Origin: Streptomyces sp. SCUT-3 | Lineage (GTDB): Bacteria; Actinomycetota; Actinomycetes; Streptomycetales; Streptomycetaceae | Assembly: GCF_014083985.1 (NCBI RefSeq) | Contig: NZ_CP046907.1 | Span: 4,378,501-4,442,500 of the forward strand | Direction of reading: 5' to 3' | Length of the DNA stretch: 64,000 nt | Shown: piece after piece, positions 41-62,694 of the stretch | How the letters are laid out: the number at the start of each line of letters is the position of its first letter | Numbering within the stretch: the stretch's first letter is position 1 | Notes under the pieces: model-generated | What the model was told of the DNA's origin: nothing | The model's input: only the letters and a program-made list of their open reading frames with translations | Database searches by the model: none | Program-made: the position numbers and the translations under genes

Positions 41-1315
41 ATGAACGGGATCGACGGCTACAACGACGCGGCGACCGAACGCTGGGTGCCCGAACCCGAC
101 AAACGGCCGGGCCGCACCGCCTTCCAGCGCGACCGGGCCCGCGTACTGCACTCGGCCGCGCTGCGCCGCCTGGCCGGCAAGACGCAGGTGGTCGCCCCGC
201 TGGAGACCCCGGCGCAGCTGAGCACCAGTCCGCGCACCCGGCTCACCCACTCCCTGGAGTGCGCCCAGGTCGGCCGGGAGCTGGGGGCGGCCCTGGGCTG
301 CGACCCGGACCTGGTGGAGACGGCCTGCCTGGCCCACGACCTCGGCCATCCGCCGTTCGGGCACAACGGCGAGCAGGCCCTGGACGAGGTGGCCCGGCCC
401 TGCGGCGGTTTCGAGGGCAACGCCCAGTCGCTGCGGCTGCTCACCCGCATCGAGCCGAAACGCTTCACCACGACCGCCGACGGCCGCGTCACCGGCGTGG
501 GGCTCAACCTGACCCGCGCCTCCCTGGACGCCGCCACCAAGTACCCCTGGCCCCGCGGCAAGCACCCCGAGGCGCCCGGCTCGCCGAAGTTCGGCGTCTA
601 CGAGGACGACCGCCCGGTCTTCGACTGGATGCGGGAGGGCGCCCCCGGCGACCGCCGCTGCTTCGAGGCCCAGGTCATGGACTGGTCCGACGACGTCGCC
701 TACTCGGTGCACGACCTCGAGGACGGCCTGCACGCCGGGCACCTCGACCCCAATCTCCTCCTCGCCGACCCCGAGCGCGCCGACCTGTTCGAGGTGGCGG
801 CCGCCCGCTACGCGCCCCTGGGAACGTCCGCCGGGGAACTCGCCGAAGCCCTGGACCGGCTGCTCGACCAGCCGTGGTGGCCGCACGGCTACGACGGGTC
901 CGCCGTCGCCCAGGCCAGGCTCAAGGACGCGACCAGCCAGCTGATCGGCCGGTTCTGCCTGGAGGCGGAACGGGCCACCCGGGAGGCCCACGGCCCCGGC
1001 CGCCTCACCCGCTACCGGGCGGAGCTCGTCGTGCCGCGCGCCGTCCGCCTGGAGTGCGCGGTGCTCAAGGCCGTCGCCGACCGCTACGTCATGCAGCGCG
1101 ACGAGCAGGAGGCGCTGCGCCGCCGCCAGCGGGTGGTGATCGCCGAGCTGGCCGAGGCACTGGTGCGCCGCGCCCCCGACGGCCTGGAACCGCAGTTCGG
1201 GGCGCTCCACCGGGCGGCGTCCGACGACGCGGAGCGGCTGCGGGTCGTGGTCGACCAGATCGCCTCCCTCACCGACGCCTCCGCCCTCGCCCTCCACCAC
1301 CGGCTCACGCGGTGA
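41..1315 (+). CDS. dgt: Deoxyguanosinetriphosphate triphosphohydrolase-like HD protein
   Basis: 424 aa. This HD-domain dNTPase family cleaves dGTP or related dNTPs to the nucleoside plus triphosphate in the cytoplasm. Metal ligands are visible: His70 in the TRLTHS segment, His99-Asp100 in [14 protein letters not shown], and a later Asp in [15 protein letters not shown], the usual dGTPase layout. No Shine-Dalgarno sequence precedes the ATG. Instead TAACGT at 28-33 lies 7 nt before the A of the ATG, which would place a transcript start on the start codon, so a leaderless mRNA is likely (inference). Neighbouring dnaG fits the Streptomyces arrangement in which a dGTPase sits near the primase. The family is sure; the exact nucleotide preference is not visible. 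Confidence 0.92.
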
Positions 1316-50239: not shown

Positions 50240-50358
50240 GGGCGACGCGCCGCCGGTGGACCGGCCGGGCCGGGGAACCCCGGACTAGGATCGGCGCGTT
50301 GACCTGATGGCACTGCACGAGGGGGGCACACGATGCTCCTCGGACCTTGGGAGAACTC

Positions 50359-50934
50359 GTGGGAGTCAGCCTCAGCAAGGGTGGAAACGTCTCGCTGACC
50401 AAGGAGGCGCCGAACCTCACGGCCGTCGTCGTGGGTCTGGGATGGGACGTGCGCACCACCACCGGCACGGACTTCGACCTCGACGCGAGCGCCCTGCTCA
50501 CGAACGAGGGGGGGAAGGTGTCGTCCGACGCGAACTTCGTGTTCTTCAACAACCTCACCAGCCCGGACGGCTCGGTGGAGCACACCGGGGACAACCTCAC
50601 CGGTGAGGGCGAGGGCGACGACGAGCAGATCAAGGTGAACCTGGCCGGGGTCCCGGCCGACGTCGCCAAGATCGTCTTTCCGGTCTCGATCTACGAGGCG
50701 GAGGCCCGTCAGCAGAGCTTCGGCCAGGTGCGCAACGCGTTCATCCGGGTGGTGAACCAGGCCGACGGCAACGAGCTGGCGCGCTACGACCTGACGGAGG
50801 ACGCCTCCACCGAGACCGCCATGGTCTTCGGCGAGCTGTACCGCCACGGTGCGGAGTGGAAGTTCCGGGCCATCGGCCAGGGATACGCCTCCGGCCTGCG
50901 CGGCATCGCCCAGGACTTCGGCGTCAACGTCTGA
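50359..50934 (+). CDS. terD: TerD family stress protein, paralog 1
   Basis: 191 aa, the standard TerD length. [63 protein letters not shown] and the C-terminal [31 protein letters not shown] are diagnostic. The conserved Asp residues ([15 protein letters not shown] with following DD) bind calcium in characterised TerD. The GTG at 50359 gives the conserved N-terminus and follows TTGGGAGAA. It is the first gene of the ter cluster. Confidence 0.95.
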
Positions 50935-51092: not shown

Positions 51093-51668
51093 ATGAGCGT
51101 CACGCTCGGCAAGGGGGGAAACGTCTCCCTCTCGAAGACGGCCCCGGGACTTCGGCAGGTGATGGTCGGCCTGGGGTGGGACGCGAGGTCCACCACCGGC
51201 GCCCCGTTCGACCTCGACGCGAGCGCCCTGATGTGCTCCGGAGGACGGGTGCTCGGCGACGACTACTTCGTCTTCTACAACAACCTCACCAGCCCCGACG
51301 GCTCGGTGGAGCACACCGGGGACAACCTCACCGGTGAGGGCGACGGCGACGACGAGTCGCTGCTGGTGGACCTGGACCTGGTCCCCGAACGGGTCGACAA
51401 GATCGTCTTTCCGGTCTCCATCCACGAGGCCGAGGAGCGCCGGCAGAGCTTCGGCCAGGTGAGCAACGCATTCATCCGGGTGGTGAACCAGGCGGACGGC
51501 AACGAGCTGGCGCGCTACGACCTGACCGAGGACGCCTCCACCGAGACCGCGATGATCTTCGGTGAGATCTATCGCTATCGAGGGGAATGGAAGTTCCGGG
51601 CGGTGGGGCAGGGGTATGCATCCGGACTCCGGGGTATCGCCCTAGACTTCGGAGTCAACGTTTCGTAA
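51093..51668 (+). CDS. terD: TerD family stress protein, paralog 2
   Basis: 191 aa, strongly similar to paralog 1 with the same calcium-binding acidic motifs ([22 protein letters not shown]). A 62-base stretch within the [18 protein letters not shown] coding region is nearly identical between them. Differences cluster in the N-terminal 20 residues and in [23 protein letters not shown] precedes the ATG. The DUF475 gene follows at 45 bp and is probably co-transcribed. Confidence 0.95.
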
Positions 51669-51713
51669 AAACACGCGTGTCCTGCGCGGGAGACCGCCGC
51701 ACAGAGATTGGGA

Positions 51714-52859
51714 ATGTCAGTGCTCCTACGGACTTTCGGGTGGTCGTTCGCCGTCACGGTGCTCGGTCTAGCCTTCGCTTTCTGGGCCTGGGGGTGGCAG
51801 GGATTCGCGATCGTGGCGATCCTGTCCGTCCTCGAGATCTCCCTCTCCTTCGACAACGCCGTGGTCAACGCGAGCGTGCTGAAGAAGATGAACGCCTTCT
51901 GGCAGAAGATCTTCCTCACCATCGGCATCCTGATCGCCGTCTTCGGCATGCGGCTGGTCTTCCCCGTCGTCATCGTCGCGGTCACCGCCCAGCTGGGGCC
52001 GATCGAGGCAGTCCAGCTGGCCATCGACGACAAGGCGAGGTACGAGGAGCTCGTCACCGCCGCCCACCCGGCGATCGCCTCCTTCGGCGGCATGTTCCTG
52101 CTGATGATCTTCCTCGACTTCATCTTCGAGGAGCGCGAGCACAAGTGGCTCGCCTGGCTCGAGCGGCCGCTGGCCAAGCTCGGCCGCCTCGACGTGCTGT
52201 CGATAGTCATCGCCCTGATCACCCTGCTGGTCGCCGCCACCACGGTGGCCACCAACGTGCCCGGCTCCGGTGACAAGTCGGGCACCGTGCTGCTCTCCGG
52301 CGTCGCCGGCCTGCTGACCTACCTGGTCGTGGGCGGCCTGTCGGACTTCTTCGAGGGCCGCCTGGAGGAGGACGAGGCAGCCGCGGACGAGGCCGCGGAG
52401 AAGCAGGCCGCGGAGGCGGCGAAGACCGGCCGCAAGCCGCAGTCGGCCGTCGGCCTGGCCGGAAAGGCCGCGTTCTTCCTCTTCCTCTACCTCGAGGTGC
52501 TCGACGCCTCCTTCTCCTTCGACGGCGTCATCGGCGCCTTCGCCATCACCAACGACATCTTCGAGATGGCGCTGGGCCTGGGCATCGGCGCGATGTACGT
52601 GCGTTCGCTGACGGTCTACCTGGTCCGCCAGGGCACCCTGGACGACTACGTCTACCTCGAGCACGGCGCGCACTACGCGATCGGCGCCCTGGCCGTCCTC
52701 CTGCTGGTCTCCATCCAGTTCCACATCAACGAGGTGATCACCGGCCTGATCGGCGTCCTGCTGATCGGCGCGTCGTTCTGGTCGTCGGTGGTACGCAACC
52801 GCCGACTGGGGGAAAACTCCTCGTCGAAGGGCACGGCGGAAGTGTCGTCCGGAGTGTGA
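51714..52859 (+). CDS. DUF475/TerC-like integral membrane protein
   Basis: 381 aa with about nine membrane segments. LEISLSFDNAVVNASVL and the second-half LEVLDASFSFDGVIGAFAITNDIFEMALGLGIGAMYVRS are the paired acidic SFDNA/SFDGV motifs of the TerC/DUF475 superfamily, thought to bind metals within the membrane. A charged, Ala/Glu-rich cytoplasmic loop (about 225-250) separates the halves. It is the membrane partner of the TerD proteins in Ter systems. The start is ATG 51714 or GTG 51720; no strong ribosome site decides. Confidence 0.9.
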   Translation: MSVLLRTFGWSFAVTVLGLAFAFWAWGWQGFAIVAILSVLEISLSFDNAVVNASVLKKMNAFWQKIFLTIGILIAVFGMRLVFPVVIVAVTAQLGPIEAVQLAIDDKARYEELVTAAHPAIASFGGMFLLMIFLDFIFEEREHKWLAWLERPLAKLGRLDVLSIVIALITLLVAATTVATNVPGSGDKSGTVLLSGVAGLLTYLVVGGLSDFFEGRLEEDEAAADEAAEKQAAEAAKTGRKPQSAVGLAGKAAFFLFLYLEVLDASFSFDGVIGAFAITNDIFEMALGLGIGAMYVRSLTVYLVRQGTLDDYVYLEHGAHYAIGALAVLLLVSIQFHINEVITGLIGVLLIGASFWSSVVRNRRLGENSSSKGTAEVSSGV

Positions 52860-52990: not shown

Positions 52991-53725
52991 ATGCGGGACA
53001 TGCAGCACTACCTGCGCAGGCTGCGGACGGCCCAGGTCGACAGCAACGCGCCCTACAGGGTCACGCTGACCAGGCGCACGCCGCTGGTCTCGCTGGACGA
53101 ACAGGGCGCGGCCTCCGGCACACTGCGGGTCAACCTGGCCTGGTCGATGCGCTCGACCGACTTCGGGCAGCGCAGCCGCGGCCTGAAGGACGTGCTGCGC
53201 GACCCGGGCAGCCTGTTCCGGCCCGAGATCGTGCACGCGCAGGGCCCCGCCGTGGTCAACATCGACCTCGACCTGGCCTGCATGTACGAACTGGCCGACG
53301 GCTCCAAGGGAGTGGTCCAGCCGCTGGGCGACTTCTTCGGGGACATCAACCAGCCCCCGTACGTAGAGCTGAGCGGCGACGACCGGTTCGGCGGCTCCTC
53401 GGGCGAGACGCTCTACATCAACCTCGACAAGAAGGACGAGATCAAGCGGCTCCTGATCTTCGTCTACATCTACGACGGCACGCCCGCCTTCGACCGCACG
53501 CAGGGCAAACTCACCCTGTACCCCAACAGCGGTCCCCGGGTGGAGATCGACCTGGACGAGCGGGCCCCCCAGGCCCGGTCCTGCGCGGTGGTGCTCATCG
53601 AGAACATCAAGGGCGAACTGCTCGTCCGGCGCGAGGTGAAGTACGTCTACGGCTTCCAGTCCGAACTGGACCGGCTCTACGGCTGGGGCCTGCAGTGGGC
53701 CCGGGGCTACAAGAGCAAGATCTGA
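52991..53725 (+). CDS. TerD-superfamily protein (variant)
   Basis: 244 aa. It is similar in outline to TerD but longer and divergent: TLRVNLAWSMRS, VVNIDLDLACMYELADGSKGVVQPLG, FGGSSGETLYINLDKKDEIKRLLIFVYIYDG, and the end YGWGLQWARGYKSKI. This is the Ter-associated family often annotated as tellurium resistance protein in Streptomyces. The acidic NIDLDLAC pattern parallels the metal site of TerD. The ATG at 52991 is preferred. It lies 131 bp after the DUF475 gene. Confidence 0.82.
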   Translation: MRDMQHYLRRLRTAQVDSNAPYRVTLTRRTPLVSLDEQGAASGTLRVNLAWSMRSTDFGQRSRGLKDVLRDPGSLFRPEIVHAQGPAVVNIDLDLACMYELADGSKGVVQPLGDFFGDINQPPYVELSGDDRFGGSSGETLYINLDKKDEIKRLLIFVYIYDGTPAFDRTQGKLTLYPNSGPRVEIDLDERAPQARSCAVVLIENIKGELLVRREVKYVYGFQSELDRLYGWGLQWARGYKSKI

Positions 53726-53793: not shown

Positions 53794-55083
53794 TCAGTGC
53801 CGGGCGGTCTGGAACTGCGGCCCCTGGGGCGGCAGGGCGAAACCGCCCGGCCGCCCGTGGTGCGCGTGCTGCCCGTGGTGTGCGGGCGGTGCGTGGTGCC
53901 CGTGCTGCGCGGGCGGCGGTACCTGCGGGGGAGGCGGATAGCCGTACCCGTGGCCCTGCGGGTGCTGCGGCGGGGGACAGCCGTAGCCGCCGTGCTGCGG
54001 GGGCGCGGCGGGTGCGGGCGGGGCCTGCGGGGGGTAGCCGTAGCCGCCGCCCTGCCCGGGACCCGCTGCCGCGGGAGCCGGGGCGACAGGGGCCGCCGGC
54101 GGATAGCCGTAGCCCCCGTGCTGCGGCGGCGCGACGGGCGCGGGGGGCATCACGGCCCCGGGGGGCATCACGGTTCCGGGGGGCATCACGGTTCCGGGGG
54201 GCACTGTGGCACCGGGAGGCATCACGATCCCGGGGGGCACCGTGGCGCCGGGGGAGTGGGCCACGGTCGCGTCCTGGTCCTGCGGCTCCGGCCAGGCGGG
54301 CGCGGGCGGCACGGACGACACCGGCGGTGCGGGCGGGAGGGGCGGCATCGGCGGCGCCTCCCCGGGGGCCGGGGAGGGCGCGTGCGGGACGTCCCCGCCC
54401 GCTCCGGCCCCGGCGTCGGCGCCCGGGTCGAGGTCTCCGGGCCCGTCGTCCCCGGGCCCGTCGTCCCCGGTCCGGACGGCCTCGGCTCCGTCGTCCCCGG
54501 TCCGGTCGTCCCCGGCTCCGTCGTCCCCGTGCTCGGCGTTCCCTTCCACGGCGACGCCGAACTCGGTGGCCAGGCCGATCAGGCCGCTGGTGTAGCCCTG
54601 GCCCAGGGCCCGGAACTTCCAGGTGTCGCCGCGCCGGTACAGCTCGCCGCACATCAGCGCCGTCTCGTCCCCGGTGTCCGGCACCACCTCGAAGAGCGCG
54701 ACGGGCTCGGAGCCGTCCCCGGCGGAGGCGTCGTGGATCAGCAGCCGCAGGTCGGACACCCCGGCGAAGGTCCCCGCCTCGGCGGACGCCGCGACGACCA
54801 CCCGGTCCACCCCGGCGTCCAGTTCGGACAGGTCGATCTCGACGCCGTCGCTGAGCCCGTCGGGGGTCTGCGACTTGGAGCAGTGACGGGCCAGCCCGGA
54901 GGGGTGCAGCGGCTGGTTGTAGAAGACGAAGTCCTCGTCGGAGCGCACACGGCCGTCGGCTCCCAGGAGCAGCGCCGAGGCGTCGACGTCCGGTACGCCG
55001 GTACCGGGACTCCAGTGCAGTTCGGCGCGGACCGAGGCCGCCGAGAGCGGGATGTTGGACCCCTTCACCATCGCGTGCGTCAT
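53794..55083 (-). CDS. TerD domain protein with long Pro/Gly/His-rich tail
   Basis: 429 aa. Residues 1-175 are a TerD domain ([83 protein letters not shown]). Residues about 180-225 are an acidic GDDG repeat. From 230 the tail is disordered with collagen-like repeats ([17 protein letters not shown]), repeated GGYGYPP elements, and a final His cluster ([17 protein letters not shown]). The tail could mediate phase separation, protein contacts or metal binding (inference). It faces the other ter genes and is divergent from the HpcH gene. Confidence 0.9.
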
Positions 55084-55279
55084 GGCCGCAATCCTGCCCT
55101 CCCGGGCCCGCGCGGGACAATGCGGGTGCACCTGTGCACTGTTTCAGCCATGTGGGGGAAGCAGTTCGGTCACCGGATCTTCATGGTCCCGGGAACAAAA
55201 TGTCGGTCTTCATACGTACGATAATCGGCCAGTTGCCGGGCGATGCCGCCCCTACCAGGCCTCATCACTCGGGAGTCGC

Positions 55280-56461
55280 ATGCGTCATTTCGGGCACCTG
55301 GACGAGCAGGTGCAGGAGGCTCTGTTCCACCGCAGGCCCGCGGAGTTCGACTCCGCGTCCCCCGCGGCCGTCCTGTCCGTGGCACTCGGAGCCACCCTCT
55401 ACAGCCCCGCGAACCGGCCCCGGCTCGCCGACGACGTCCTCAAACAGGCGGCCCAGGGCGTGGTCTCCATGGTCCTGTGCCTGGAGGACTCCATCGACGA
55501 CGCCGAGGTGGAGCAGGCCGAGGCGAACCTCGTCGGGCAGTTCGCCGACCTCGGCCGGCGCGCCGGCCAGTGGGGCGGCCGGGGGGCCTGCCTGCCCCTC
55601 CTCTTCATCAGGGTCCGCACCCCCGGGCAGATCACCGACCTCACCGCTCGCCTCGGCGGCGACCTGCGCCTGCTGTCCGGGTTCGTCCTGCCGAAGTTCA
55701 CCGAGGGCAGCGGGATCCCGTTCCTGGAGGCGCTCACCGCCGCCCAGGAGGAGCACGGGCAGCGCCTGCTCGCCATGCCGGTCCTGGAGTCCCCCGAGCT
55801 GCTGCACCTGGAGACCCGCCAGGAGACGCTGGCCGGCATCGCCCGCACCGTCGACAAGTACCGCGAGAACGTGCTCGCCCTCCGTCTGGGCGTCACCGAC
55901 TTCTGCTCCGCCTACGGCCTGCGCCGCGCCCCCGACATGACCGCCTACGACGTGCAGATCGTGGCCGGCGTCATAGCCGACGTGGTGAACGTACTCGGAC
56001 GCGCGGACGGCACCGGCTTCACCGTGACGGGGCCGGTCTGGGAGTACTTCCGGGTCCAGGAGCGGATGTTCAAGCCCCAGCTGCGGCGCACCCCCTTCAC
56101 GCCGAAGGCGGAGAAGCTGCGGGCCGCACTCATCGAGCACGACATGGACGGCCTGCTGCGGGAGATCGAACTCGACCGCGCCAACGGGCTGCTGGGCAAG
56201 ACCTGCATACACCCCAGCCACGTGCCCGCCGTGCACGCACTGTCGGTGGTCTCGCACGAGGAGTACTGCGACGCCGCCGACATCCTGGACGGGGACCGCA
56301 GCGGGGGCGGCGTCCTGCGCTCCGCCTACACGAACAAGATGAACGAGGTGAAGCCGCACCGGGCCTGGGCCGAGCGCACCCTGCGGCGGGCCGAGGTGTT
56401 CGGCGTGGCGCGGGAGGGCGTGACGTTCGTGGAACTGCTGGCGGCCGCGCTGCCGTCCTGA
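55280..56461 (+). CDS. HpcH/HpaI aldolase/citrate lyase-like enzyme of the Ter biosynthetic arm
   Basis: 393 aa. LGATLYSPANRPRLADDVLKQAAQGVVSMVLCLEDSIDDAEVEQAE holds the metal-ligand Glu-Asp of the citrate lyase beta superfamily, with LPKFTEGSGIPFLEAL and RLGVTDFCSAYGLRRAPD downstream. The family probably makes or breaks a C-C bond of a CoA or oxo-acid substrate. It starts a three-gene run with the PRTase fusion and HAD genes, which Anantharaman, Iyer and Aravind predicted to make a nucleoside-like metabolite in Ter systems. ATG 55280 follows GGGAG; the upstream frame is not coding. CGTACGATAAT near 55219-55229 may be part of its promoter. Confidence 0.87.
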   Translation: MRHFGHLDEQVQEALFHRRPAEFDSASPAAVLSVALGATLYSPANRPRLADDVLKQAAQGVVSMVLCLEDSIDDAEVEQAEANLVGQFADLGRRAGQWGGRGACLPLLFIRVRTPGQITDLTARLGGDLRLLSGFVLPKFTEGSGIPFLEALTAAQEEHGQRLLAMPVLESPELLHLETRQETLAGIARTVDKYRENVLALRLGVTDFCSAYGLRRAPDMTAYDVQIVAGVIADVVNVLGRADGTGFTVTGPVWEYFRVQERMFKPQLRRTPFTPKAEKLRAALIEHDMDGLLREIELDRANGLLGKTCIHPSHVPAVHALSVVSHEEYCDAADILDGDRSGGGVLRSAYTNKMNEVKPHRAWAERTLRRAEVFGVAREGVTFVELLAAALPS

Positions 56462-56578: not shown

Positions 56579-59233
56579 ATGACATCAGCAGCACCGCAGA
56601 CCTGGTCGGGCCGGTGGGTCGCCGACCGCCTCGGGGTCGGCCTCGTCCCCGCGGACGGCCCGGCGGACGCACCCGCGGGCACACCCGCGGACGCGTCCGC
56701 GGGCGGCCCGGGAGGCGGTTCTGCGGGCGGCCCGGCCCCGGCCCCGGCCCTCGCTGAACTGCTGGGGCTCGCCCTGCGCCGCAACCCCCGGCGGGCCCAC
56801 CTGCTGGTCTCCAACGTGCTGGGCAAGCACGTCCCCCAGTTGCCCGCGACGGTGCACGGCGCGGGTGTCCGGCTGGGCGAGCGGGTCCGGGAGCTGCTCG
56901 GGGAGGAGGACGCCGCGCGCGCCGTCGTCCTCGGTTACGCGGAGACCGCGACCGGGCTCGGCCACAGCGTCGCCGACGGACTCGCCCTCGCCCCGTACCT
57001 GCACTCGACCCGCCGGCCCGTCGCGGGGGTGCGCCCGGTGGGCGGCTTCGAGGAGGAGCACAGCCACGCCACCTCCCACCTGCTGCTGCCCGAGGACCCG
57101 CGCCTGCTGGCCGGGGACGGCCCGCTGGTGCTCGTCGACGACGAGTTCTCCACCGGCAACACGGTGCTCAACACCGTCACCGCGCTCCACGCGCGCCACC
57201 CGCGCGATCACTACGTGATCGTCGCCCTGGTGGACATGCGGTCGCGGGCCGACCGGGCCCGGCTGGAGGAGTTCGCCGCCGGGCTCGGCGCCCGCACGGA
57301 CGTCGTCTCCCTCGCCGGGGGAACGGTCCTGCTGCCGCCGGACGTCCTGGCCCGCGGCCAGGCGCTGGTGGCCGAGCACGAGACGGCCTCGGCGGCCGCC
57401 GCCCCCGCATCACCGGCGGCTTCCGCATCACCCGCTGCCGCCGCCCCGGCCCCCGCCGAGCGCGTCGACCTCGGCTGGCCCGAGGGCCTGCCCGACGGGG
57501 GCCGCCACGGCTTCACCCCCGCCCACCGCGCCCGCCTCGAGGCCGCCCTGCCCGCCATGGCAGCCCGCCTCGCCGCCCGCCTCGGCCTCCCGGCCCCGGC
57601 CCTCCCGCTCCCCGCCGTTCCCGGCGGTCTCCCCGCCGCGCCCGGCCCCGGCGCGCGCCGGGTGCTGGTCCTCGGCAGCGAGGAGCTGATGTACGCGCCG
57701 CTGCGCCTGGCCGGCGCCCTGCAGGACGCCCTGGGCGGGGCGGCCGAGGTCCGCTTCTCCACCACCACCCGCTCGCCCGTCCTGCCCGTCGACGACCCCG
57801 GGTACGCGATCCGCACCCGCATCTCCTTCCCCGCCCACGACGACCCCGCCGACGGCCCCGGCGAGCGCTACGCCTACAACGTCGCGGCCGGCACCGACCC
57901 CGCCCGCGCCTTCGACGCCGTCGTGGCGGTCGTCGACTCCGCCGGGGACACCCCCGCCCTGCACGCGCCCGGCGGCCTCCTCGCCCGCCTGGGCGAGGAG
58001 ACCGGCCGCGTCCTGCTGGCCGTCGTGCCCTCGTACACCCCCGACGGACAGGCCCGGCCCGTGCACCGTCCCGCATCCCACGACCTTCCCGAGCCGCTGC
58101 GCGGACCGGCGTTCTCCTCGTACGCGGCCGACGAGGTCGGCTGGCTGCTCAAGGACCTCTCCGACGTCACTCTCGAGGCGCCCACCGAGGAGCGGGAGGA
58201 GGCGATCCAGAGCGGCGGCGCCCACTACGCCGAGTCGCTGCCGGTCGAGTACCAGCCCACCGCCGAGTACCGGGCGCTCTTCCGCAGTGCCCTGGACGCC
58301 TCCGCCGCCCGCATCGCCCGCGCCGTCGGAACGGTCACCGAGACCCTGCTCGCCGAGCGCGGCCCCGGCGCCGTCCTGGTCTCCCTGGCCCGCGCCGGAA
58401 CGCCCGTCGGCGTGCTGATGCGCCGCTGGGCGCTGGCCGCGCACGGCACCGCCCTGCCCCACTACGCCGTCTCCATAGTCCGCGGCCGGGGCATCGACAC
58501 CAACGCCCTGCGCTGGCTGGCCGACCACCACGACCCGGCCGACGTCGTCTTCGTCGACGGCTGGACCGGCAAGGGGGCCATCGCCCGTGAACTGGCCGCC
58601 GCCGTCACCGCCGGCGACGTCCCGGCCGGCTTCGACCCGCGGCTGGCCGTGCTCGCCGACCCCGGCCGCTGCGTGGACACCTACGGCACCCGCGACGACT
58701 TCCTCGTCCCGTCCGCCTGCCTGAACTCCACCGTCTCCGGCCTGGTCTCCCGCACGGTGCTGCGCGCCGACCTGACCGGGCCGGGCGACTACCACGGCGC
58801 CAAGTTCTACCGGGAGCTGGCGGACTCCGACGTCTCGGGCGTCTTCCTCGACGCCGTCACCGCCCGGTTCGAGGAGGTCGCCGACGCCGTCGCCGGCGAC
58901 GTCAAGGAGCTGCGGGCGCAGGACCGCACCCCCACCTGGGAGGGCTGGGCCGCCGTCGAGCGGATCAGCGAGGAGTACGGCATCGGCGACGTCAACCTCG
59001 TCAAGCCGGGGGTGGGCGAGACCACCCGGGTGCTGCTGCGCCGCGTCCCGTGGCGGGTCCTCGCCCGGCGCGGCGCGGGCGCCGACCTGGACCACGTGCG
59101 GCTGCTCGCCGGACAGCGCGGCGCGCCCGTCGAGGAGGTCGACGACCTGCCCTACTCCTGCGTGGGGCTGATCCACCCCCGCTTCACCCGGGGGGCCACC
59201 GGTACCGGCGGAACGGCGGTGGCCGCGCGATGA
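56579..59233 (+). CDS. Fused double phosphoribosyltransferase (PRTase-TRSP + StiP-like PRTase-PELOTA)
   Basis: 884 aa. After an Ala/Gly/Pro insert (25-57), the first PRTase (about 60-260) has the PRPP loop VDDEFSTGNT at 186-195. A linker at 262-290 leads to a TRSP domain, with the literal TRSP motif at 397-400. A second unit, usually a separate StiP-like PRTase gene, covers about 525-780 with VSLARAGTPVGVLMRRW and VVFVDGWTGKGAI. The C-terminus (about 800-884) resembles the PELOTA RNA-binding domain. In many genomes these are two adjacent genes; here one chain carries all. GGGAAGAG precedes the ATG, and the HAD gene overlaps its stop by 4 bases. Confidence 0.85.
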   Translation: MTSAAPQTWSGRWVADRLGVGLVPADGPADAPAGTPADASAGGPGGGSAGGPAPAPALAELLGLALRRNPRRAHLLVSNVLGKHVPQLPATVHGAGVRLGERVRELLGEEDAARAVVLGYAETATGLGHSVADGLALAPYLHSTRRPVAGVRPVGGFEEEHSHATSHLLLPEDPRLLAGDGPLVLVDDEFSTGNTVLNTVTALHARHPRDHYVIVALVDMRSRADRARLEEFAAGLGARTDVVSLAGGTVLLPPDVLARGQALVAEHETASAAAAPASPAASASPAAAAPAPAERVDLGWPEGLPDGGRHGFTPAHRARLEAALPAMAARLAARLGLPAPALPLPAVPGGLPAAPGPGARRVLVLGSEELMYAPLRLAGALQDALGGAAEVRFSTTTRSPVLPVDDPGYAIRTRISFPAHDDPADGPGERYAYNVAAGTDPARAFDAVVAVVDSAGDTPALHAPGGLLARLGEETGRVLLAVVPSYTPDGQARPVHRPASHDLPEPLRGPAFSSYAADEVGWLLKDLSDVTLEAPTEEREEAIQSGGAHYAESLPVEYQPTAEYRALFRSALDASAARIARAVGTVTETLLAERGPGAVLVSLARAGTPVGVLMRRWALAAHGTALPHYAVSIVRGRGIDTNALRWLADHHDPADVVFVDGWTGKGAIARELAAAVTAGDVPAGFDPRLAVLADPGRCVDTYGTRDDFLVPSACLNSTVSGLVSRTVLRADLTGPGDYHGAKFYRELADSDVSGVFLDAVTARFEEVADAVAGDVKELRAQDRTPTWEGWAAVERISEEYGIGDVNLVKPGVGETTRVLLRRVPWRVLARRGAGADLDHVRLLAGQRGAPVEEVDDLPYSCVGLIHPRFTRGATGTGGTAVAAR

Positions 59234-60162
59234 CCGCCGCCCCGACTCCCGCCGCCGGTCCGGCAGTGCCGGCCCCCGCGGCCGGCCGCGCGCCCCTCCT
59301 GGCCGCCAGCGACCTGGACCGCACCCTGATCTACTCGGCCGCCGCCCTGGCCCTGGACGTCCCCGACGAGCAGGCGCCGCGCCTGCTGTGCGTGGAGGTC
59401 TACAACAGCGCGCCGCTGTCCTACGTGACCGAGACCGCCGCCGGCCTGGTCCGCGAACTCGCCGACGCGGCCGTCTTCGTCCCCGCCACCACCCGCACCC
59501 GCGAGCAGTACCGGCGCATCCGCCTGCCGGGCCCCGTCCCGCCGTACGCCATCTGCGCCAACGGCGGCCACCTGCTCGTCGACGGCGCCACCGACCACGA
59601 CTGGCACGCCGAGGTCCGCCGCCGGCTCGACGACGGCTGCGCCCCGCTGGCCGAGGTCCGCGCCCACCTGGCACGCACGGCCGACCCGGCCTGGCTGCTC
59701 AAGGACCGCGTGGCCGAGGACCTGTTCGCCTACCTGGTCGTGGAACGCTCCCTGCTGCCGGACGGCTGGGTCGACGAGCTCGCCGCCTGGGCGGGCGAGC
59801 GGGGCTGGACCGTCTCCCTGCAGGGCCGCAAGGTCTACGCGGTGCCCGGGCCGCTGACCAAGAGCGCGGCGCTGGCGGAGGTCGTGCGGCGCACCGGCGC
59901 CGGCGAGGTGCTCGCCGCCGGCGACTCGCTGCTCGACGCCGAACTGCTGCTGGCCGCGGACACCGCCTGGCGGCCCGGCCACGGGGAACTCGCCGACACC
60001 GGGTGGACGGGGCCGGGAGTCACCGCACTGGAGACGGCCGGCGTCGCGGCGGGCGAGGAGATCCTGCGCCTGATGCTCGCCCGCGCCCGAGCCCGAGCGG
60101 GCGCGCCTCCGCGGCCGGGGACCGCCCGCGGTGTTTCCGGTGCACCGGCCCCCCGCCCCTGA
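59230..60162 (+). CDS. HAD-family phosphatase of the Ter biosynthetic arm
   Basis: 310 aa. The nucleophile motif is ASDLDRTLIYS (Asp28 and Asp30), with Thr in PATTRTREQYRRI, Lys later (LQGRKVYAVPGPLTKSAAL), and motif IV VLAAGDSLLDAELL, the layout of Cof-type HAD phosphatases. The ATG overlaps the PRTase stop (ATGA), so translation is coupled. It probably dephosphorylates the product of the PRTases (inference). The first 20 residues and last 30 are low-complexity. Confidence 0.88.
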   Translation: MTAAPTPAAGPAVPAPAAGRAPLLAASDLDRTLIYSAAALALDVPDEQAPRLLCVEVYNSAPLSYVTETAAGLVRELADAAVFVPATTRTREQYRRIRLPGPVPPYAICANGGHLLVDGATDHDWHAEVRRRLDDGCAPLAEVRAHLARTADPAWLLKDRVAEDLFAYLVVERSLLPDGWVDELAAWAGERGWTVSLQGRKVYAVPGPLTKSAALAEVVRRTGAGEVLAAGDSLLDAELLLAADTAWRPGHGELADTGWTGPGVTALETAGVAAGEEILRLMLARARARAGAPPRPGTARGVSGAPAPRP

Positions 60163-61306: not shown

Positions 61307-62557
61307 TCAGTGCCCCGGCTGTCCCCCGCGCTCCTCCCGGATGAGCCGGACGACCCGCTCGGCGGTGTCGCGCACCGCCGCGGTCTCGGTGAGGAAGTGC
61401 CAGTAGTCCGGGTGACGGCCGTTCAGGCCGTCGATCGCGCGCTCGAGCCGGGCGACCGCGTCGTCCAGGGGCCGGGCGTGCCGGGGGTCGGGGGTGCTGC
61501 GGCCCGTCATGGCCAGCCGCTGGGCGTCCCGCAGGGCGAACCGGGTGCGGTCGATCTCCGGCTGCCGGTCGCGGGCGACGTCGTCCAGCAGCCGCAGCCG
61601 TTCCTGCACGGCGGAGACCGCCTCGTCCACCTCGTTGAGCAGGGCACGTGCCGTGCTCGTCCGGGAGGTGGCGTCCGCCCACGCCTGCGCGTCGTGCGCG
61701 CGCCGGGCCTCGGCGAGCCTGTCCTCCGCCTGCCGCAGCGCCTCGGCGGCCCGGGCGGGCAGCGGCTGCAGGTCCTGCCAGCAGGCCGCGCTGAATCGGC
61801 GCCGCAGCTCGCTCAGCACCGGCCCGACCTGCCCGGCGCGGGTGGCCAGCGCTTCGGCGCGGGTGGCCAGGGAGCGCAGCCTCCGGTCGATCTCCCGGGC
61901 GCGCTCGGGCAGCCGCTCGGCCTCGCTGCGCAGTGCCTCGGCGCTGCGCAGCACGTCGTCGGCGCGCTGCAGGGTGGCCCGGACGCCGTGCGTGCCGGCG
62001 CCCTCGTTGAGGCGTGAGAGTTCCGGGCCCAGCCGTGCCAGGCGGGCGGCCAGGTCGTCGGCGCGGAACCCGGCGGCCCGGACGTCGTCGAGCGCCCGGG
62101 TGGCGGCGAGCAGCGCCTGCCGGGCCCGCTCCACGGCGGGCAGGAGCCGGGCGAGCTGCGTCTCCGCCCGTTCCAGCAGCGGGGCGGACGACTGCGCGAA
62201 GCGGTCCAGGGCGCCCTTGACCCGCACCAGTTCGTCCCGGGCGGCGAGCAGTTCGACGCGGGCCCGCGACGCGGCGGCGGGGGAGAGGTCGTCGCGGTCG
62301 AGGTCGCACGCGTCGACGGCGGCTATGTAGCCGGCGCTGGCGGTGTCCACGGCCTGCCCCAGGGCCGCGAACTCCGCCGCGGCGCGCTGCGCGTCCGGGG
62401 AGTCGTCGACCGCGGCCAGGGTCTCCACGGAGATCCTCAGGTCGCGCTGGGCGGAGTCGAGCTCGTAGAACGCGTGCGCGGCCGCGTCCTTGGCCTCCTG
62501 CGCGTCCGCCCGCAGGCCGTCCCCGCCGCGCCGCCACCACGAACGTGCCGTCGTCAC
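61307..62557 (-). CDS. Uncharacterised helical (coiled-coil) protein
   Basis: 416 aa. It is almost entirely Ala/Arg/Glu-rich helix with heptad-like runs (ARVELLAARDELVRVKGALDRF, LQRADDVLRSAEALRSEAERL, ALRQAEDRLAEARRAHDAQ). No signal peptide, membrane segment or enzymatic motif is visible. One tryptophan-rich piece begins the protein (SWWRRGGDGL), and a better-folded end reads LNGRHPDYWHFLTETAAVRDTAERVVRLIREERG. I do not recognise the family. A structural or scaffold role is a guess. The GTG at 62557 is preferred (GGGGAAG upstream); the frame is open to 62632. It is divergent from the ABC lipoprotein. Confidence 0.72.
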   Translation of the reverse strand: MTTARSWWRRGGDGLRADAQEAKDAAAHAFYELDSAQRDLRISVETLAAVDDSPDAQRAAAEFAALGQAVDTASAGYIAAVDACDLDRDDLSPAAASRARVELLAARDELVRVKGALDRFAQSSAPLLERAETQLARLLPAVERARQALLAATRALDDVRAAGFRADDLAARLARLGPELSRLNEGAGTHGVRATLQRADDVLRSAEALRSEAERLPERAREIDRRLRSLATRAEALATRAGQVGPVLSELRRRFSAACWQDLQPLPARAAEALRQAEDRLAEARRAHDAQAWADATSRTSTARALLNEVDEAVSAVQERLRLLDDVARDRQPEIDRTRFALRDAQRLAMTGRSTPDPRHARPLDDAVARLERAIDGLNGRHPDYWHFLTETAAVRDTAERVVRLIREERGGQPGH

Positions 62558-62694
62558 TTCCCCGCTCCCGCAGTCCCCGCTCCGGCCGTGCCGGCTTGCC
62601 GCTCCATCCTCCCACCCGCCGGCCGCGGGCACACGGGGCCGTGCGCGAGGGCGGGGGAGGGGCTGTGGCCCGCGGTGCGCACACAGTGTTTAAT

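Follow-up and report, generated by a model that had tools for sequence, protein, structure and literature searches.

In the Ter systems, two phosphoribosyltransferases (PRTases) have been proposed to make a nucleotide (PMC5512222; this and the other papers on these systems are cited from excerpts of their texts). A fuller model combines synthesis with sensing by TerB and TerD and a response through TerC (PMC7824862). For Klebsiella, PMC8115787 gives a nucleoside-like metabolite as the predicted product of the biosynthetic cluster, calls the connection of this cluster to the TerC complex unclear, and states that terZ-F suffice to make E. coli MG1655 resistant to tellurite. All three papers cite Anantharaman et al. 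(2012) for the biosynthetic proposal. Here we describe a gene that encodes both PRTases in one chain, found in a 64,000-nucleotide stretch of Streptomyces sp. SCUT-3 (contig NZ_CP046907.1, positions 4,378,501 to 4,442,500; hereafter, the window). This fusion is an ordinary architecture among the relatives of the window, in a pathway that is known but uncharacterised. The more useful results are that fused and split forms have replaced each other repeatedly, and that one of the two PRTase halves, StiP, is probably misnamed in databases.

In the proteobacterial ter clusters, the two PRTases are encoded separately. Among the best 80 of 566 candidate loci, retrieved by a scan led by a Rhizobium sequence, the PRTase genes are separate in 80/80, with the HAD gene lying between them in 75/80 and an ATP-grasp gene present in 57/80. 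The Klebsiella pair carries the same four domains as the window protein, and homologues of the HAD protein and of the C-C lyase occur in 80/80 and 74/80 of these loci, respectively. By contrast, the window has a single chain, with the HAD gene downstream and no ATP-grasp gene beside it. A Tsukamurella plasmid (locus L080) has the same gene order as the window, namely, TerD genes, DUF475, C-C lyase, PRTase_2-TRSP, StiP-PELOTA, and HAD-like, but its PRTase genes are separate, with a 4-base overlap. The Ter set of Acinetobacter phage ME3, described in PMC7824862, also includes PRTase_2, StiP-PELOTA, HAD, and a TerD-like gene, but these are separate genes, and neither the TRSP motif nor a Pfam TRSP match was found there. 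An earlier note on the window had described the two units as separate neighbouring genes elsewhere, and their separation holds for the Tsukamurella, Rhizobium, and Klebsiella plasmids, for phage ME3, and for all 80 proteobacterial loci.

In the window, PRTase_2-TRSP and StiP-PELOTA do lie in one open reading frame (ORF), as the earlier note had read it, and all four domains score above the curated cut-offs in a Pfam-A scan (Table 1). The same note had described Ala/Pro linkers, and here the composition tells otherwise. The fraction of alanine and proline is 0.40 in residues 1-60, 0.47 in residues 249-305, and 0.52 in residues 321-362, so that the rich segments sit N-terminally, between PRTase_2 and TRSP, and within the TRSP match, whereas at the TRSP/StiP joint (residues 468-512) it is 0.27, close to 0.21 in the StiP domain itself. 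Since the rich stretches are absent from the joint, Ala/Pro linkers are no marker of fusion.

Table 1. The fused gene, its domains and motifs, and the neighbouring genes in the window
Feature	Position	Strand	Residues	Remarks	Basis
Fused PRTase_2-TRSP-StiP-PELOTA protein	56579..59233	+	1-884	884 aa, ATG start, TGA stop	ORF list, Pfam-A
PRTase_2 domain (PF15609)	56759..57322	+	61-248	APRT-like type I PRTase fold (predicted)	Pfam E 2.2e-67, AlphaFold2, Foldseek, VIA-align
EEEHSHA motif of PRTase_2	57050..57070	+	158-164	perhaps in the flexible catalytic loop	
Phosphoribosyl pyrophosphate (PRPP) loop of PRTase_2, DDEFSTGNT	57137..57163	+	187-195		motif scan, alignment
TRSP domain	57494..57979	+	306-467	TRSP signature at 397-400	Pfam E 5.2e-35
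TRSP/StiP joint between the halves	57980..58114	+	468-512	not rich in Ala/Pro	composition
StiP domain (PF11202)	58115..58858	+	513-760	predicted PyrR/HGPRT-like type I PRTase fold	Pfam E 6.3e-103, AlphaFold2, Foldseek, VIA-align
SLARAGTPVG motif of StiP	58382..58411	+	602-611	like a pyrophosphate loop (putative role)	alignment, motif scan
DGWTGKG motif of StiP	58556..58576	+	660-666	like a PRPP loop	conservation in alignment
PELOTA_1 domain	58937..59176	+	787-866	L7Ae/L30e-like fold	Pfam E 9e-34, L7Ae-family profile hits, L30e structure rows
TerD protein	50347..50934	+			Pfam
TerD protein	51093..51668	+			Pfam
DUF475/TerC-like membrane protein	51708..52859	+			Pfam
TerD protein	53794..55131	-		long tail of low complexity, rich in Pro/Gly/His, with repeated motifs; divergent from the lyase gene	
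C-C_Bond_Lyase (PF15617)	55052..56461	+		CitE-like TIM barrel; translation probably starts near 55280	Pfam E 3.2e-121
HAD-superfamily-IIB-like protein	59230..60162	+		no Pfam match	NCBIfam match below cut-off, E 4.4e-4

We called a locus fused if its best PRTase_2 and StiP matches lay within one stop-free frame. The length of the open frame, considered as a proxy for fusion, was wrong for several genomes and was discarded. Below, f and g numbers denote family and genus groups, and L and G numbers denote loci and genomes. The loci were not a random draw but comprised the best-scoring hits along with genera and families picked by hand for their spread; this weighting means that the fused and split counts are not population rates. 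The pair is incomplete at seven loci (L018, L019, L020, L077, L085, L115, and L152), which were left out. Of the 119 records with both domains, 69 were fused and 50 split, the latter including the Klebsiella, Rhizobium, and Tsukamurella plasmids and one phage. The window's own family contributed 59 fused and 26 split records, while its genus is represented by one genome, that of the window. The fused form prevails in the best-sampled genus, g2 (42/42), and in g243 (5/5) and g239 (5/6, the sixth being G457), and is rare or missing in g249 (1/10), g238 (0/3), g241 (0/4), and g247 (0/3). Outside the family, it was found in f99 (4/4), f3g5 (3/3), and f90 (1/12). The relatives appear to belong to the class Actinomycetes, judging by the Tsukamurella plasmid sequence, whose neighbour in the tree is an f3 genome. 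The earlier note had left it to be checked whether fusion is simply the common form in all relatives. It is common in the sampled actinomycetes, but no fused form occurs among the best 80 of the 566 proteobacterial loci. The fusion is mentioned in none of the titles and abstract openings listed by the literature searches, a coverage that stops short of full texts.

StiP as such is present in 238/249 genomes of the window's family and in 20/396 genomes drawn from the phylum. Matches to the window protein were found in 2,566/72,556 plasmid records, and a viral scan yielded two loci. Genome G457 was counted as split in the survey, also within the 26 of the window's family, and excluded from the tree and from the joint, conservation, and motif analyses; in its locus L153, the StiP match runs over two frames, and as the genome is 76% complete, this could reflect gene decay or a fault in the assembly.

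A fused frame could in principle be produced by a sequencing frame error, and some single genomes do differ from their sister (e.g., L086 and L146), so that errors may be at work there. For the window we consider such an artefact extremely improbable, as its genome is a single contig with 99.08% completeness, and the fused form is common to 42/42 genomes of g2, 5/5 of g243, and 4/4 of f99.

To follow the fused and split states, we used a tree of the concatenated PRTase_2 and StiP domains, built by a quick method from 89 rows (41 fused, 48 split). Besides G457, the rows of f18, the phage, Klebsiella, and Rhizobium are absent from it, as are 28 of the 42 genomes of g2. On this tree, the state changes 11 times, and at least eight changes are forced by well-supported branches. 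Five changes remain after 16 rows are dropped that were alone in their genus, sat on long branches, or were unlike their sisters, and three remain in a strict subset of 44 rows, made of genera with at least three agreeing rows plus the outgroup. As some single-genome differences are possibly sequence errors, three changes is the safe floor. A single origin of the fusion was considered and rejected: the tree holding all fused rows together fails the approximately unbiased test (p 2.2e-66, quick tree). If the root is placed on the split outgroup and the genes never part, 14 joinings are needed; if the root is fused and genes never join, the number of partings is 19. Thus, the fusion has repeatedly arisen or been lost, and each change may have gone in either direction.

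The gene joint suggests how this could happen. In 26/45 split actinomycete loci, the stop codon of the PRTase_2-TRSP gene overlaps a possible StiP start as ATGA, and among the other 19 there are five where GTGA or TTGA stands in the StiP frame. The remaining ones show other overlaps or short gaps, with the exception of L088, where the gap is several hundred bases. Moreover, in several split loci the StiP frame stays open a long way upstream, across the first gene. Given this frame and the stop/start overlap, a frame shift near the joint could fuse the genes. If frame shifts have repeatedly joined or parted the adjacent genes, the main effect of the fusion would be to fix the two activities at equal dosage. 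As relatives alternate between the fused form and two adjacent genes, covalent linkage of the two PRTases is unlikely to be essential. The suggestion of the earlier note that two active sites in one chain point to substrate hand-over is not supported by the fusion. Still, fused and split sisters form a natural set in which the importance of the linkage can be tested.

The PRTase_2 half has, on its predicted structure, a type I PRTase fold, and we regard this assignment as firm. The AlphaFold2 model of PRTase_2-TRSP (window sequence and 36 relatives; predicted local distance difference test score, pLDDT, 75.6) matches APRT in Foldseek (E 2.3e-7) and aligns with the APRT structure 5zc7_A in VIA-align over 172 residues (Z 14.9, root-mean-square deviation (rmsd) 3.0). 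A profile search of PDB sequences with this half gave PRTases and PRPP synthases only, all of them weak, the best being UMP synthase (E 0.0084). In an hhalign comparison with single PRTase sequences of the same genome, drawn from the seven of 11 loci that were found by a motif pattern, the probability was 61.6% for PyrR-like L240 and 2.0-13.1% for six others, with controls at most 2.9%. The PRPP loop has both acidic residues expected of a two-acid loop, and its D-D-E, G, and T are invariant in 37 sequences. The predicted fold is shared with APRT, whereas the HSHA motif and the TRSP domain are features of the PRTase_2 half itself.

For the StiP half, a type I PRTase fold similar to PyrR and HGPRT is predicted. 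The AlphaFold2 model of StiP-PELOTA (window sequence and 37 relatives) is confident, with pLDDT 88.3 and a predicted template modelling score (pTM) of 0.89. Its best PDB matches in Foldseek are PyrR and HGPRT, with E from 1.2e-4 (PyrR), and VIA-align places it on PyrR 1ufr_C over 146 residues (Z 9.9, rmsd 3.8). The PELOTA part matches ribosomal L30e-type rows in both Foldseek and VIA-align. In the PRPP-like loop, conservation across 198 sequences reaches 99-100% at D660, W662, T663, G664, K665, and G666. Thus, the two PRPP-type sites claimed by the earlier note are seen as two predicted PRTase folds and two PRPP-loop motifs, and a second PRTase fold, whose absence would have spoken against that claim, is indeed predicted. 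With PyrR and HGPRT the StiP half has the predicted fold in common, whereas the one-acid DGWTGKG loop and the attached PELOTA domain are its own.

Several results limit this assignment of StiP. In Foldseek, matches of low template modelling score to pyridoxal phosphate enzymes are mixed among the PRTase rows, and the top VIA-align row is a capsule multienzyme (tied Z 10.1, rmsd 4.8, 220 residues aligned). The profile search of PDB sequences with StiP-PELOTA gave L7Ae-family proteins only, via PELOTA (best E 0.0029), and no PRTases. In hhalign, the probability for StiP against the same seven PRTases did not exceed 1.1%, the 22 controls reaching 0.6%. As the profile comparison is uninformative, the assignment depends on the predicted fold and the layout of motifs. 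Finally, the PRPP-like loop has one acid, the second acidic residue being missing, and so the activity of StiP is not assured. On the other hand, one-acid PRPP loops also occur in some PRTases, and thus the PRTase identity is compatible with this loop.

The missing acid also fits another reading, in which a single half is catalytic and the other is a sensor of PRPP or nucleotides, StiP-PELOTA being an RNA-binding regulator. The PRTase fold is used for regulation by PyrR and PurR, the structural matches of StiP include PyrR, itself an RNA-binding PRTase, and an L7Ae-like domain follows StiP. However, the nearly complete conservation of the loop is what one would expect of an active site, and a fused form with equal dosage would suit two enzymes more than an enzyme and a regulator. 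Overall, we find a regulatory half rather unlikely. The PELOTA domain could also mean that StiP-PELOTA acts on an RNA bound by PELOTA, through phosphoribose transfer or base exchange, with the base nucleotide being made or recycled by PRTase_2. This would agree with the presence of a PELOTA/L7Ae-like domain on the predicted PRTase fold in fused and split forms alike. Neither an RNA substrate nor a precedent for one in the PRTase fold was found here, in an analysis with no test dedicated to it, and we hold RNA as a substrate to be improbable. Equally improbable is the idea that a free-base PRTase is coupled to an RNA-directed one, with StiP adding phosphoribose to the PELOTA-bound RNA or swapping one of its bases and PRTase_2 making or recycling the modified nucleotide. 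In that case, one would expect a Ter signal that is linked to RNA or ribosylated twice, not a plain nucleoside.

In Pfam, StiP (PF11202) is named a cysteine protease, and RefSeq follows the same naming. This name is probably wrong, as no column of the alignment of 198 StiP domains exceeds 73% cysteine, the next best having 58%. No invariant cysteine was found in the 38 sequences comprising the window protein and 37 proteobacterial relatives. The window protein has three cysteines in total, at residues 698, 714, and 861. Apart from the database names, the case for a protease has one column, C245, which is at least 90% cysteine in this mostly proteobacterial alignment; the window protein has alanine there, and among the 198 sequences the column has alanine in 110 and cysteine in 79. 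The best Foldseek matches are PRTases, and no protease is among the 50 rows shown for the StiP half, which leaves room for a family that is not listed. Taken together, this makes a cysteine protease very improbable. In an excerpt of PMC12111023, the phrase "cysteine protease" for StiP repeats the annotation in a list, and in a survey of papain-like proteinases (PMC10318531), "PF11202" does not appear in the main text and "tellurite" appears solely in a reference title. If StiP is a PRTase-like protein with no conserved cysteine, this would correct a database name that points readers to proteolysis.

The PRPP-loop motifs of both halves are kept in 69/69 fused copies. Looser motifs are occasionally missing from these copies: HSHA in one, SLxRAGxPxG in one, and HYxxSxxRxxGxD in three. 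Split copies of family f90 often deviate from the latter two motifs, which suggests that these are less constrained than the PRPP loops. Outside the window's class, a divergent pair was seen in family f18 (L114, 7757-9831, minus strand). It has WTSGG in place of WTGKG in StiP, a PELOTA match under the cut-off, and PRTase_2 with the TRSP motif yet without a Pfam TRSP match.

The fused gene lies among Ter biosynthetic genes, as the earlier note proposed, next to genes for the C-C lyase, the HAD-like protein, TerD, and DUF475. Both PRTases, the lyase, and HAD (the latter by a match below the cut-off) are thus in one cluster near TerD, and ATPgrasp_Ter is not found in it. The ATG of the HAD-like gene overlaps the TGA of the fused gene as ATGA at 59230-59233. 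Promoter and terminator scans found nothing. In actinomycete loci of at least 9 kb, homologues of the lyase and HAD proteins stand beside the pair in 38/38, while TerD is found in 26/38 and DUF475 in 23/38.

We lean towards reading the fused protein as an enzyme with two functions in the Ter biosynthetic module. The APRT-like PRTase_2-TRSP half would use PRPP to attach phosphoribose to a small acceptor resembling a base, which the upstream C-C lyase may make or trim. StiP-PELOTA, combining a PyrR/HGPRT-like fold with an L7Ae-like domain, would be a second PRPP-dependent transferase of the same pathway, the product of the overlapping HAD gene would remove phosphate, and TerD proteins would bind the product. 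The proposal of one pathway making a nucleotide predates this analysis; the fusion agrees with it and does not prove it. The excerpts of the literature offer predictions of what the Ter biosynthetic genes make, and a single soluble chain with both transferases would be convenient for finding the actual product.

Some observations count against this scheme. The excerpts of the Ter literature report an enzyme activity for neither half. TerD was not found in the fetched flanks of 12/38 actinomycete loci, all from family f90, and hence not every cluster would sense through a nearby TerD. ATP-grasp is present in 1/38 actinomycete loci, compared to 57 of the 80 best-scoring proteobacterial clusters. 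Given this near absence, the actinomycete pathway may lack the ATP-grasp step, or an enzyme encoded away from the cluster may carry it out. Outside the cluster, the window's genome has three ATPgrasp_Ter matches, one of them above the cut-off; the profile also matches 13/14 control genomes.

The f90 clusters (L084, L086-L096), all 12 without TerD in the flanks, keep the lyase, both PRTases, and HAD. Perhaps they employ this pathway for a purpose independent of Ter.

Other genes of the window also recur near Ter loci. A coiled-coil-like protein of 441 aa (61307-62632, minus strand) has no Pfam family above the cut-off and is a conserved Ter neighbour, with homologues near the cluster in 14/44 loci (f1, f3, f89, and f99). 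An O-methyltransferase (PF01596; 60199-60870, plus strand) starts 36 bases past the HAD ORF, and its homologue is found in 4/44 loci, all from the window's family. The protein encoded at 52994-53725 (plus strand) has a sub-threshold TerD match (E 0.031) and homologues in 13/44 Ter loci, one of which is the Klebsiella terA ORF in its C-terminal part.

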